A stretch of 32,555 nt of DNA, taken from Anaerolineae bacterium. Its GTDB lineage: Bacteria > Chloroflexota > Anaerolineae > Anaerolineales > Villigracilaceae. This document shows positions 118 through 29,335 of the stretch, in pieces. The notes under the pieces were generated by a model that searched no databases, had not been told where the DNA came from, and saw only the letters and a list, made by a program, of their open reading frames with translations. The stretch spans positions 1 to 32,555 of the forward strand of contig JABGQU010000019.1 in the NCBI GenBank assembly GCA_018648605.1. Direction: 5' to 3'. The position numbers and the translations under genes were made by a program. How positions within the stretch are numbered: the stretch's first letter is position 1; the number at the start of each line of letters is the position of its first letter.

Positions 118-2652
118 ATGACCATCTTTGTCCAAATCTCCGTAAATGTCCCCGCCGTGAGTGGGGTTTTTGATTACCATCTTCCTGAAAACCTAGATGG
201 GCAAGTTGGCGTTGGGCATTTGGTGACCGTTCCTTTTGGTCATCAAGTTGTGCAAGGGGTGGTTTTACGCTTTGTAAAAACTCCCGCTGTTGAAGATACA
301 AAAGCCGTCATTGATCTGCTTGACCCTTTGCCTGTGTTGACATCCGCACAAATTGCGCTCGCTGAGAATATGGCGGAGCAGACTCTAAACCCTGTTGCAG
401 CAATGGTAGGGATGATGCTACCAAGCGGATTGAGTCAGCAGGCAGATGTGGAGTTCGAGATCCGGGAATTGGGAATTGGGAATAGTGAACTTTCTCAAAC
501 CCAAAAACGTATTCTTGCCTTACTCGAAAAGCGTGGCTCTTTACGCGGACGACAAATTGACCGTCATTTCAAAAACGTAGATTGGCGACCATCTGCGCAG
601 AATTTACTCAGGCGCGGCATTCTAATGAGTAAATCCGTTTTGCTCGCGCCAAAGGTACGCCCGAAATTTGTGCGTACCGCGCAATTGGCTGTTCCGCCGA
701 AGGTTGCTGAAGAAGCCATGTCTACTTTGGGGACAACAGATGCGACGCAAAATCGCCGTGCGGCTGCGTTGCAATTTCTAATGCGAGAAAAAGAAGCCAT
801 TGCCGTTAGTTGGGTTTACGCTGAGAGTAATTGTAATATTGCTGATCTGCAAATCTTGGCTGAAAAAGATTTGATCGTTTTACGAGAAACCGAGATTTGG
901 CGTGACCCCGTTCAAAAAGTAGAAATCGAAGAAGCAGAACAAAAAGAATGGGCACTAACACCGGCCCAAAAAGAAGCGATGAAAGCCGTTCACGAATCTT
1001 TCGCTGATTCGCTGACGCATCCCATTCTCTTGCACGGCATAACTGGTTCCGGCAAAACCGAGATTTATATCCGCGCCGCGCAGGAGGCAATTAAGCGGGG
1101 TGGGCAAGCCTTGATTCTCGTCCCTGAAATTGCACTCACGCCGCAAACCGTGCGTCGCTTTTTAGCGCGCTTCCCCGGACAGGTTGGGTTAATCCACTCA
1201 AAGCTCTCCATCGGTGAACGCTACGATACCTGGCGACGGGCGCGGGCAGGACAACTCAAAGTAATCATTGGCGCACGTTCTGCGCTTTTTGCGCCTTTAC
1301 CGGATATCAAATTGATCGTTTTGGATGAGTTTCACGATGGCTCTTATCATCAAACGAATCTGCCTTTTTATGATGCCGTTCAGGCTGCGCAAAATTATGC
1401 TGAGATCAACGGCGCAGTTTGCATTTTGGGGTCGGCAACCCCGCCCATCGAATATCGCTATCAAGCTGCCCTCACCCATTCTCGCTCCGCTCGAATTTCC
1501 CTCTCCCGCGACGCGGGAGAGGGGGAGCGAGCGAAGCGAAGCGGGGGTGAGGGCGTTTTTCGCCTTGTCGAACTCCCAGAAAGAATCGGAGACAGAAAAC
1601 TTCCGCCTGTTGACGTGATCGACATGCGCACCGAGTTGAAATCCGGCAATAAGGGCATTTTTAGTCGTGCGCTGCAGGATGCGCTATCCCAAACACTGGC
1701 GCGCGGCGAGCAGGCCATCCTCTTTCTCAATCGGCGCGGCACGGCAACTTACGTTTTTTGCCGCGAATGTGGGCATACGATGAAATGTCCACGTTGCGAA
1801 ACGCCACTCACTTTGCATGCGATAAATTCTCCACCCTTGAGGGGGGGAGTTAGAGGGGGGGCTTTGCGCTGCCATCGCTGTAATTACACGCGTCAGATGC
1901 CGAAAAACTGTCCCGAGTGCAAGAGCACGAAGATCCGTGCCTATGGACTTGGCAGTGAAAAGGTCGAGGATGAAGTCAACGCCCTTTTTCCCGATGCCCG
2001 CGTCTTGCGCTGGGATTGGGATACCACCCGCACAAAGGATGCCCATGAACTCATCCTGAGCCATTTTACGGCGCACCGTGCTGATGTACTGGTTGGCACG
2101 CAGATGCTCGCCAAAGGGCTAGATCTGCCTCTCGTGACCCTTGTGGGTGTCGTGCTCGCAGATGTGGGATTAAATCTCCCCGATCCTTTCGCCGCCGAAC
2201 GCGTTTTCCAGACCCTGACACAAGTTGCGGGACGAGCAGGACGGTCCGCTCGTGGTGGAAGCGTGCTGTTGCAAACTTTTGAGCCGGAGCATTATGTGGT
2301 GCAACATGCTTCCAAGCATGATTATGCAAACTTTTACGCTCACGAACTGGAACAGCGTCGCCGGCTGGGATATCCGCCCTTCGCCAATTTGGTGCGTTTG
2401 GAATACCGCCATCGCGACCCCATCACTGCTGAAGAAGCAGCAAAAAAACTTGCTGCAGAAATCAAGGAATTATTGCTCATCGAAAACCGAATACAAACTA
2501 CGATTATCGGTCCCGCCCCTGCCTTCTTCTCCAAGATAGATGGTGTTTATCGCTGGCAAATTGTTTTACGTGGCCCCGAGCCTGAGACGTTATTGCGAAA
2601 TAAAGATTTGAAGGGTTGGAGAGTTGAAGTTAGTCCTGTGAGTTTATTATGA
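118..2652 (+). CDS. priA: Primosomal protein N' (replication restart helicase PriA)
   Basis: Walker A GITGSGKTE, motif II DEFHD, zinc-binding CRECGHTMKCPRC...CHRC...CPEC, GSEKVEDEV, GTQMLAKGLD and QVAGRAGR motifs. Confidence 0.96.
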   Translation: MTIFVQISVNVPAVSGVFDYHLPENLDGQVGVGHLVTVPFGHQVVQGVVLRFVKTPAVEDTKAVIDLLDPLPVLTSAQIALAENMAEQTLNPVAAMVGMMLPSGLSQQADVEFEIRELGIGNSELSQTQKRILALLEKRGSLRGRQIDRHFKNVDWRPSAQNLLRRGILMSKSVLLAPKVRPKFVRTAQLAVPPKVAEEAMSTLGTTDATQNRRAAALQFLMREKEAIAVSWVYAESNCNIADLQILAEKDLIVLRETEIWRDPVQKVEIEEAEQKEWALTPAQKEAMKAVHESFADSLTHPILLHGITGSGKTEIYIRAAQEAIKRGGQALILVPEIALTPQTVRRFLARFPGQVGLIHSKLSIGERYDTWRRARAGQLKVIIGARSALFAPLPDIKLIVLDEFHDGSYHQTNLPFYDAVQAAQNYAEINGAVCILGSATPPIEYRYQAALTHSRSARISLSRDAGEGERAKRSGGEGVFRLVELPERIGDRKLPPVDVIDMRTELKSGNKGIFSRALQDALSQTLARGEQAILFLNRRGTATYVFCRECGHTMKCPRCETPLTLHAINSPPLRGGVRGGALRCHRCNYTRQMPKNCPECKSTKIRAYGLGSEKVEDEVNALFPDARVLRWDWDTTRTKDAHELILSHFTAHRADVLVGTQMLAKGLDLPLVTLVGVVLADVGLNLPDPFAAERVFQTLTQVAGRAGRSARGGSVLLQTFEPEHYVVQHASKHDYANFYAHELEQRRRLGYPPFANLVRLEYRHRDPITAEEAAKKLAAEIKELLLIENRIQTTIIGPAPAFFSKIDGVYRWQIVLRGPEPETLLRNKDLKGWRVEVSPVSLL
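1468..1554. repeat. 87-bp palindromic repeat inserted in frame in priA
   Basis: Outer arms GCCCTCACCC/GGGTGAGGGC; inner perfect arms CCCTCTCCCGCG-A-CGCGGGAGAGGG; encodes the non-homologous peptide LTHSRSARISLSRDAGEGERAKRSGGEGV. Confidence 0.85.
1823..1864. repeat. G-rich repeat insertion in the priA zinc-binding region (peptide NSPPLRGGVRGGA)
   Basis: TTCTCCACCCTTGAGGGGGGGAGTTAGAGGGGGGG interrupts PLTLH...LRCHRC, where PriA homologues normally have only a short linker. Confidence 0.7.
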
Positions 2653-2779: not shown

Positions 2780-3382
2780 TTGAGAAAAACGATGGCTGAT
2801 ACAAAACCAAAACGCCGTAACTCCCTCCGTCTAAAAGGATATGATTACACCCAACCTGGGGCATATTTTGTCACGACCGTTACGCATCAGCGAGCATGTT
2901 TATTTGGCGATGTGGTCGATGGAGAGATGCAATTGAACCACGCGGGAAAAATCGTGCATTGGGAATGGGAGCGATTAGCACACCATTTTGATTTTATTGA
3001 ATTAGGTGCGTTTGTTGTGATGCCAAATCATTTTCATGGGATTATTATCTTGCAAGACGTAGGGGCGCCCCGTTTGGGTTATTTGGATACTGCATCTAAA
3101 AACGAGAATCTTGCTACCAACATAATTTCACGCAAAAATCACAAAGGGTCGCCCTTGCATGCCAAGGGATCTACTCCAAAATCCTTGAGCGCAATCATTG
3201 GACAATTAAAATCCCGCGTAACAAAACGCATCCACAAAACCGACGAATTCCCCCCCCCGAACGAATCTGGCAACGCGGATTTCACGACCGCATTATCCGC
3301 AACGAAGAAGAATGGCGTAAAATCCATTTGTATATCGAAGCTAATCCTGCTAATTGGGAAAATGATACTGAAAACTCTATGA
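2780..3382 (+). CDS. REP-associated tyrosine transposase (IS200-like/RAYT, Y1_Tnp fold), C-terminus frameshifted
   Basis: RRNSLRLKGYDYTQPGAYFVTTVTHQRACLFG and the HUH-type motif MPNHFHGII, then SLSAIIGQLKSRVTKRIH. Adding one C to the C9 tract (3250-3258) restores PERIWQRGFHDRIIRNEEEWRKIHLYIEANPANWENDTENSMNLL, ending at TAA 3391-3393. Confidence 0.85.
   Translation: MRKTMADTKPKRRNSLRLKGYDYTQPGAYFVTTVTHQRACLFGDVVDGEMQLNHAGKIVHWEWERLAHHFDFIELGAFVVMPNHFHGIIILQDVGAPRLGYLDTASKNENLATNIISRKNHKGSPLHAKGSTPKSLSAIIGQLKSRVTKRIHKTDEFPPPNESGNADFTTALSATKKNGVKSICISKLILLIGKMILKTL
3059..3156 (+). repeat. REP/MITE-like element, copy B (inside the RAYT coding sequence)
   Basis: GTAGGGGCGCCCCGTTTGGG...TTTCACGCAAAAATCACAAAGGGTCGCCCTT; aligns end to end with copy A. 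Confidence 0.75.
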
Positions 3383-16985: not shown

Positions 16986-18109
16986 TATTGTGTTTTTTCT
17001 AAGATTTCGTCGCCATACTCTTGCATGCGCCAGAGCGTTTTTTCCATGATCTTTCTCAACTCTTCTACCCGACGTGGGTTTTTCCTGGCGATATTTTCCA
17101 TCAAGGGTCGAGGCAGGACAATATCTGATTCAACGCCTAAAGTTTTAGCTTTTTCTTTGCGCCAATTGCGTAATATATCCAGACGTGAAATATACTCATC
17201 GCTGGGGCGTTTAGAAGGTGTGCGGCGTACAAAGTCTGCATGAAGACCACGCTCCACTGCGGCGAGGAAAGGTTTCCCGAAGCGGCTGATCTGGCGCGGA
17301 GTGAAACCACTGATCTCAAGATCACGCCTGCTGCGAGGCATGGATTCAGCTAATTTGAGTAAGGTTTTATTGCTAACGACCTTAAATACAGGGCGGTTTA
17401 GTTTGGCGGCTAAAGCTTCACGAGCCAGGCAGATTTCATTCAAAACGGTAGCCTCCCGAGGGGCAAGCTTGGCGCGTCCGCCCACGCGTTCCCAAAGGGG
17501 CAGTTGCTGACGTTCACTCATCCCGTTAACGTAGGTCGCCATCTCAAAATCTTCTTGTGCCAATTCCCAGCGATTTTTATCTTTCAAATCTTTTTTGAGA
17601 ATTTTTCGCAAGGCGATTAGATAATGCGTATCAAGGCGCGCGTAATTGAGCATTTCTTCGGTGAGAGGGCGTTTGCCCCAGTTGGCTTTTTGATATTTTT
17701 TGTCTACTTGCACATCGAATTTGCTATCAAGCAATTTGCCTAACCCCACGGCCTGATAGCCTAGAATACGGGCGGCGATCATGGTGTCGAAAATATTAGC
17801 AAATTGAAAGCCGAAATCTCGCTGAAGGCAGATCAGATCGTACTCAGCGGCATGGAAGATTTTTTCGATATCGGGGTTTGCAAAGAAGGGAGCTAAGTCG
17901 CTTAGATCGGGTAAGGCAAAGGGGTCGAGCAGATAGTCTTTTTCAGATGTGGAAAACTGGATCAGACAAACTTGTTCTTGATAAGCATGTAGACTATTCG
18001 ATTCGGTATCTACGGCAATACTCGCCTCTTCTTCGAGAGCAGAGAGCATATTTTTTAGTGCTGTCTTGCTTGCCACCCAGGTTGGTGGCGGAAGTGTTTT
18101 CTTCGTCAT
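16985..18109 (-). CDS. rnd: Ribonuclease D (3'-5' exonuclease plus HRDC)
   Basis: AVDTESNSLHAYQEQVCLIQFS, HAAEYDLICLQRDFG, LNYARLDTHYLIAL; start revised to MTKKTL. Confidence 0.9.
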   Translation of the reverse strand: MTKKTLPPPTWVASKTALKNMLSALEEEASIAVDTESNSLHAYQEQVCLIQFSTSEKDYLLDPFALPDLSDLAPFFANPDIEKIFHAAEYDLICLQRDFGFQFANIFDTMIAARILGYQAVGLGKLLDSKFDVQVDKKYQKANWGKRPLTEEMLNYARLDTHYLIALRKILKKDLKDKNRWELAQEDFEMATYVNGMSERQQLPLWERVGGRAKLAPREATVLNEICLAREALAAKLNRPVFKVVSNKTLLKLAESMPRSRRDLEISGFTPRQISRFGKPFLAAVERGLHADFVRRTPSKRPSDEYISRLDILRNWRKEKAKTLGVESDIVLPRPLMENIARKNPRRVEELRKIMEKTLWRMQEYGDEILEKTQ

Positions 18110-28543: not shown

Positions 28544-29335
28544 CTATCGTTCTATGGTGTTGTCGTAATCATCCATGCAGTGCGATATCCAGGTGGTGGG
28601 GAAGTTGAAGGCTTGGATTTCACTGCAATAGGGGATGCCTTGCCCGATATAGGCGATGATCCATGTGCCGGAGCTATCTTTGCCAGCGAACCAACCTGCG
28701 CCTGACATCTCGCCGACTTTTTTGACGCCGCCTGTTGCTACTGTGCCCGTATTCGTGCCCATAGAGAAATCTAATTCTGCGGCTGTCCAGCCGAGTTTTG
28801 CCAGCAATGCCTGCTTAATGGCTTCTTCGTCTGTTAATGTGGGTTGCCCAAGAGCAACTGTGTTCCCTGAAGCATCTACACAATGTGAAATCCATGTGGT
28901 GGGGAAGTTGAAAGCCTGAATGTCGACACAATTTGGGATGCCTTGCCCAATATGGGCGATGATCCACTTGCCAGCACTGTCCTTCCCTGCAAACCAGGCC
29001 GCGCCCTGCATTTCGCCGACTTTTTTGACGCCGCCACGTGCGAGCGTGCCGGTGTTATCACCCATGGAAAAATCTAATTCTGCGGCTGTCCAGCCGAGCT
29101 TTACCAGCAAGGCTTGCTTGATGGCTTCTTCGTCTGTTAGCGTAGGGGCTGGCGGGGGAGGCTGAGTTGGCGGAGCAGATTGTGGCTGCATGGCTTCTGT
29201 CGTTAGTGCAACCGATGTAGCGATTTTATCTGTATTGGCGGCGGGGGTAGGCGGAGCATCAAAAATACTGCATGCGAAAGTAAAGAGAAGTAATAGTGCA
29301 AGTACCGTTGTAAGATAAAGTCTTTTTTTATTCAT
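28544..29335 (-). CDS. Lipoprotein with tandemly duplicated ~90-aa domain of unknown function
   Basis: Lipobox-like LLFTFACS; two copies of LTDEEAIKQALL.KLGWTAAELDFSMG...WFAGKDS...WIIA.IGQGIP.C..IQAFNFPTTWISHC, period 101 aa. Confidence 0.8.
   Translation of the reverse strand: MNKKRLYLTTVLALLLLFTFACSIFDAPPTPAANTDKIATSVALTTEAMQPQSAPPTQPPPPAPTLTDEEAIKQALLVKLGWTAAELDFSMGDNTGTLARGGVKKVGEMQGAAWFAGKDSAGKWIIAHIGQGIPNCVDIQAFNFPTTWISHCVDASGNTVALGQPTLTDEEAIKQALLAKLGWTAAELDFSMGTNTGTVATGGVKKVGEMSGAGWFAGKDSSGTWIIAYIGQGIPYCSEIQAFNFPTTWISHCMDDYDNTIER

Follow-up and report, generated by a model that had tools for sequence, protein, structure and literature searches.

An 87-bp palindromic repeat lying in frame within the priA gene of a bacterium of the Chloroflexota is probably a protein-tolerated mobile element of a genus-restricted family

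The window analyzed here is a stretch of 32,555 nucleotides from an Anaerolineae bacterium of the phylum Chloroflexota (contig JABGQU010000019.1; the genome is referred to below as G000). Close to its left end lies an intact priA gene (118-2652, plus strand), which encodes a replication-restart helicase of 844 amino acids. The product of this open reading frame (ORF) matches the Pfam families PriA_3primeBD, DEAD, Helicase_C and PriA_C, and it is PriA both by sequence (8fak and 4nl4; E about 1e-94) and by fold (4nl4, E 1.3e-49). Within priA, on the same strand, positions 1468-1554 are occupied by an 87-nt palindromic repeat (GCCCTCACCC...GGGTGAGGGC). Its outer arms, GCCCTCACCC (1468-1477) and GGGTGAGGGC (1545-1554), are 10 bp long and pair with each other, a pairing that is maintained in nearly all of 18 copies of the repeat. 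Its inner hairpin, CCCTCTCCCGCG-A-CGCGGGAGAGGG (1499-1523), consists of perfect 12-bp arms at 1499-1510 and 1512-1523 around a single central A at 1511. Folded as single-stranded DNA, the 87-mer reaches -36.3 kcal/mol compared with a mean of -18.8 for shuffled sequences (z = -6.69), and none of 200 shuffles did as well. Sequence and fold thus bear out the original prediction of an 87-bp palindrome of 29 codons in frame, with 10-bp outer arms, 12-bp inner arms and one central base. The peptide given in that prediction was, however, one residue out of register: codons 451-479 encode ALTHSRSARISLSRDAGEGERAKRSGGEG.

The 29 inserted residues are predicted to form a disordered loop. In the AlphaFold model of PriA (mean pLDDT 82), residues 455-478 have pLDDT values below 50 and lie between a confident helix (444-454) and a strand (482-486). 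The original prediction had named conservation of the peptide across PriA homologues as one of two findings that would speak against a mobile repeat; instead, the peptide is missing from PriA of the congeneric genome G008, of most of the family and of E. coli. A conserved PriA domain was accordingly rejected, the peptide being missing from relatives and from solved PriAs alike. A second, smaller repeat-like insert, SPPLRGGVRGG (1828-1860, plus strand), is present in frame in the zinc-binding region of PriA and behaves like the 87-mer insert. It is missing from G004 and G008, it occurs as variants in G002, G003 and G006, and residues 570-578 have pLDDT values below 50.

When priA was compared among relatives, the 87-mer was found at the same site in G000, G004 and G006. 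Because G004 and G006 are further, independent assemblies, an assembly artefact is ruled out. The site is empty in G008 (YQAETRAFCLVELP) and in most relatives. The same point is taken up by other polypyrimidine hairpins in two genomes (G001, G002) and by repeat-type peptides in two more (G003, G033). Polypyrimidine hairpins occurred in 5 of the 45 priA genes scanned (116 kb), all at this one site, which is an insertion hotspot. When judged against the G008 site, the priA insertion shows no target-site duplication and replaces about 9 nt, although G008 is not the ancestor. In the PriA tree, G006 falls outside the group that G000 and G004 form with G008, G002 and G003; therefore, the branch of G008, G002 and G003 has lost or replaced the element, unless the element was inserted more than once. 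Moreover, the insert in G006 has AAAAGC/GCTTTT flanks, unlike those in G000 and G004. These differing junctions favor separate insertion events, without proving them.

The second finding that the original prediction had named as contrary evidence, a lack of other genomic copies, was not borne out either. Further copies of the 87-mer were found in the window's genome, one of them full length (contig C161, 87% identity) and others partial (contigs C35 and C91). Near-full-length copies number about 15 in G006 and several in G004 and in G008, and across G000, G004, G006 and G008 their identity is about 85-97%; a genome search found none in G001, G002, G003 or G005, and a search of plasmid records gave no match. 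Within one clade of an Anaerolineae genus, each genome thus has roughly 2 to 15 near-full-length copies of the family. Its length is exactly 87 nt in 15 of 18 aligned copies, mostly intergenic ones, and the keeping of frame over 29 codons therefore belongs to the repeat and not to the priA insertion. Note that although family copies typically have four of their six frames open, shuffling at equal composition leaves 3.4 frames open on average, which argues that openness is not special and that the ease of frame-keeping comes from length.

The core of the inner hairpin is common to a wider class of repeats (CTCTCCC-loop-GGGAGAG), which was found at 28 places in the window's genome (reversed control, 0) and in 32 of the 36 genomes of the searched set. 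At least 8 copies of this wider class lie in frame within Pfam-supported genes of the window's genome, the hosts being an AA kinase, an FtsJ/TlyA-like methyltransferase, a fused glycyl-tRNA synthetase, a DEAD helicase, metH (two copies), HMG-CoA reductase and priA. Remnants of the 87-bp family itself are also present in orthologous PEP synthase-like ORFs of G004 and G008 (a host named by eye rather than by Pfam).

We consider it very probable that the 87-mer is an RPE- or MITE-like, protein-tolerated, non-autonomous mobile palindrome of a genus-restricted family, inserted in a loop of PriA. A protein-tolerated mobile repeat is what the original prediction had proposed, and the proposal is supported by the dispersed copies, the empty site, the occupation of this one site by different repeats in relatives and the in-frame copies in several other genes; from the first three of these we infer that the 87-mer moves actively. 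According to this explanation, the 87-mer would have inserted between two priA codons where PriA tolerates additional residues, in the loop that comes after the helix following the SATP motif and ahead of the next beta strand. The insert would then be translated as a disordered loop of 29 residues that is presumably carried by the mature PriA and is probably near-neutral for it. Since the repeat normally measures 87 bp and about four of its six frames are open, many insertions preserve the frame of the host; selection may subsequently retain those that fall in loops. Such a mode of working would resemble that of the Rickettsia palindromic elements (RPEs) and of intragenic REPs.

RPEs (Ogata et al. 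2000, 2002, as reviewed in PMC10969869) are palindromes of about 150 bp that occur in frame in unrelated protein genes, have a translated open frame, form several families per genome and also have intergenic copies. The repeats described here are likewise palindromic and multi-copy, and they are inserted in frame in unrelated genes and missing from orthologues. The comparison is one of kind and not of descent. The differences are that the 87-mer is found in Chloroflexota and is 87 bp long, its family uses several frames and both strands, one site has been used repeatedly by different repeats, and the polypyrimidine class is associated with the flanks of DUF559 genes. Intragenic REPs of the GTAG and CGTC families also lie in coding regions, many of them in genes for replication and repair; at about the same recB site, two Xanthomonas species are reported to carry different REPs (PMC3733652), much as different repeats occur at one priA site. 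GTAG REPs, in contrast, are 20-40 bp long, end in GTAG and have RAYT partners. Classification of the 87-mer as a REP or REPIN was rejected, given that it lacks the GTAG tag and that its class is not associated with RAYTs (1 of 20 Y1 loci). With bacterial MITEs (e.g. those of Coxiella burnetii, PMC5896051) the 87-mer shares being short, non-autonomous, dispersed and bounded by inverted repeats (87 bp, no transposase of its own, 10-bp inverted-repeat ends). It differs from them in having neither a proven target duplication nor a proven parent transposon, DUF559 elements being candidate parents. What is already known is thus the phenomenon seen with RPEs and intragenic REPs; what is new is the Chloroflexota family, the priA hotspot, the divergence anomaly described below and the DUF559 association. 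The findings add free-living Chloroflexota to the bacteria that have protein-coding palindromes, for which Rickettsia is the best-known example, and they reveal one helicase loop that has been colonized by different repeats in a single genus.

Two observations count against the preferred explanation. One is that the priA insertion shows no target-site duplication in the comparison with G008. The other is that the priA copies of the three species differ by only 3-5 of 87 nt, compared with 18-25% for the rest of the gene, a pattern that is not accounted for by a single old neutral insertion. In particular, 3 of the 87 positions of the element (3.4%) differ in the pair of G000 and G004, compared with 18.2% for the rest of priA, and between G006 and either of these genomes the element differs by 4.6-5.7% compared with about 25%. 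None of the codon changes in the element is synonymous; in the rest of priA most are. Furthermore, no 87-nt window in the rest of the gene is equally conserved in any of the three pairs (minima of 5, 12 and 10 differences, versus 3, 4 and 5 for the element). Orthologous intergenic copies, too, diverge less than their flanks (10-21% versus 30-63%, the flank figure being inflated by poor alignability). Low divergence of this kind without synonymous change might be expected if the palindrome were retained as a useful nucleic acid, whether for regulation of the priA transcript or as a protein-binding site, and were therefore under purifying selection. We nevertheless judge such a function unlikely. 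Compensatory change was seen in only 2 of 32 pairs of the repeat among 18 copies, so that covariation is nearly absent, no Rfam family reached its gathering score with the 87-mer (there was only a sub-threshold chance match), sister species have no element or have another repeat, and the same pattern would be expected from concerted evolution or from repeated insertion. The low divergence of the element could be due to homing or repeated insertion, to gene conversion or to selection on the sequence, and the fact that the element diverges slowly relative to its own host gene makes it possible to distinguish among homing, gene conversion and selection by a test.

We also weighed the idea that a tyrosine (Y1, HUH) transposase, for instance the product of the ORF downstream of priA (2780-3382), moves the repeat, which would then be a REP or REPIN. 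Y1 genes are common in relatives, and this ORF, which begins about 130 bp downstream of priA, is RAYT-like (VVMPNHFHGIIIL). The idea was nonetheless already disfavored, and we regard it as very unlikely: the 87-mer does not end in GTAG, the repeats close to the RAYT-like ORF belong to a different type (GTAGGGGCGACCCGTTT, at 96-113 and 2656-2673), only 1 of 20 Y1 genes is flanked by polypyrimidine hairpins, and the ORF itself looks frameshifted at a run of C near 3248. The ORF has no Pfam match at 1e-3. (The GTAGGGGCGACCCGTTT repeats are inverted around priA and are of the GTAG REP type, and a related stretch lies inside the RAYT-like ORF near 3058-3080; a search of the window's own genome for the paired pattern GTAGGGGCGACCC found nothing.) Least credible of all is that the insert is removed at the level of RNA or translation as an intron, an intein or a ribosomal bypass. 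The 87-mer does form a strong hairpin inside a coding sequence, as do mitochondrial byp elements. Bypass would not, however, require what is found in all inserts at the priA site and in the other listed genes, which preserve the frame without stops; an intein would be expected to have splicing domains of more than about 100 amino acids, compared with the 29 of the insert; and Rfam gave no intron family for it.

If the 87-mer is a mobile palindrome, as we prefer to think, then the question arises of what moves it. A reading that we hold to be possible, though somewhat short of probable, is that polypyrimidine palindromes, the priA family included, are moved or spread by DUF559 (Vsr-like) nucleases, and that the 87-mer is akin to a deletion-derivative partner of DUF559 elements. 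Such a reading provides a mechanism for the preferred explanation rather than its opposite, and the low divergence of the priA copies would also be explained, by repeated homing or gene conversion at the one site. The link was noticed through copies of the wider class, which led to DUF559 domains in frame inside metH (contig C119 of G000, locus L106) and HMG-CoA reductase (contig C47, L068), with repeat peptides on either side. In relatives, DUF559 was found in frame in metH (in several genera of the family and the order), HMG-CoA reductase, uvrA, Type ISP restriction enzymes and others (some hosts being named by eye); in metH, HMG-CoA reductase and uvrA it has flanking repeats. At L164 and L165, in two genomes, DUF559 lies in frame inside uvrA with repeat-rich peptides on either side.

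Polypyrimidine hairpins were found within 260 bp of DUF559 at 23 of 32 order-level loci, compared with 1 of 20 Y1/RAYT loci (Fisher p 1.8e-6) and 2.2% of control pairs (7e-21), and in a phylum-level sample at 23 of 26 loci compared with 6 of 127 controls (4.7%; p 9e-19), p-values that are too small because the loci are best-scoring hits, usually one per genome, that are non-random and partly related. In the combined samples, repeats of the polypyrimidine class flank DUF559 genes at 46 of 58 loci (control windows, 2-5%). The end motif of the priA family, CCCTCACCC, is present in 21 of 58 DUF559 flanks compared with 4.2% of controls, and near-exact inverted copies bracket the DUF559 genes of Deinococcus and of several Chloroflexota. 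The same arrangement was found outside Chloroflexota at Deinococcus, Sphingomonas and Azospirillum plasmid loci; two cyanobacterial loci (L257 and L261) do not pass the strict hairpin test, yet their flanks, of a related C-rich type, match in inverted orientation. On the Deinococcus plasmids, DUF559 genes with polypyrimidine hairpins occupy various positions in catabolic clusters (hpa and paa; L252, L253, L258 and L260).

Several findings temper this reading. Although the end motif and core motifs of the family occur near DUF559, the full 87-mer was not found beside DUF559 at the tested loci, BLAST recovering only a core of 26-32 nt at a few of them. At 13 of 61 DUF559 loci (Y1, 0 of 15), the inverted match between the two flanks exceeds that of 99% of mismatched pairs, but direct matches are equally frequent and score as high, so inverted orientation is not clearly commoner, and single loci such as L253 and L260 are the only ones for which terminal inverted repeats are established. 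Finally, association is not action, and DUF559 may simply insert among repeats. More tentative still, and to our minds doubtful as yet, is the broader proposal that a widespread class of polypyrimidine palindromes owes its mobility to DUF559 proteins, which are Vsr-like PD-(D/E)XK nucleases, in a counterpart of the RAYT/REP system built on another enzyme, with solitary repeats and nuclease genes inserting in frame (in priA, metH, HMG-CoA reductase and uvrA) and re-homing to the same sites across species. A solved relative of these endonucleases is 3hrl, and the literature searched yielded no paper that links DUF559 to palindromic repeats. If the association is causal, it would supply the missing mobility enzyme for a large and common class of bacterial repeats as well as an explanation for a widespread domain of unknown function.

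Elsewhere in the window, two further features were observed. On the minus strand, the peptide QLPLWERVGGRAK (17455-17510), in a ribonuclease D-like protein, resembles an eroded repeat-encoded insert. In addition, a putative lipoprotein gene contains two tandem copies of 287 nt that are 78% identical (28557-29146).
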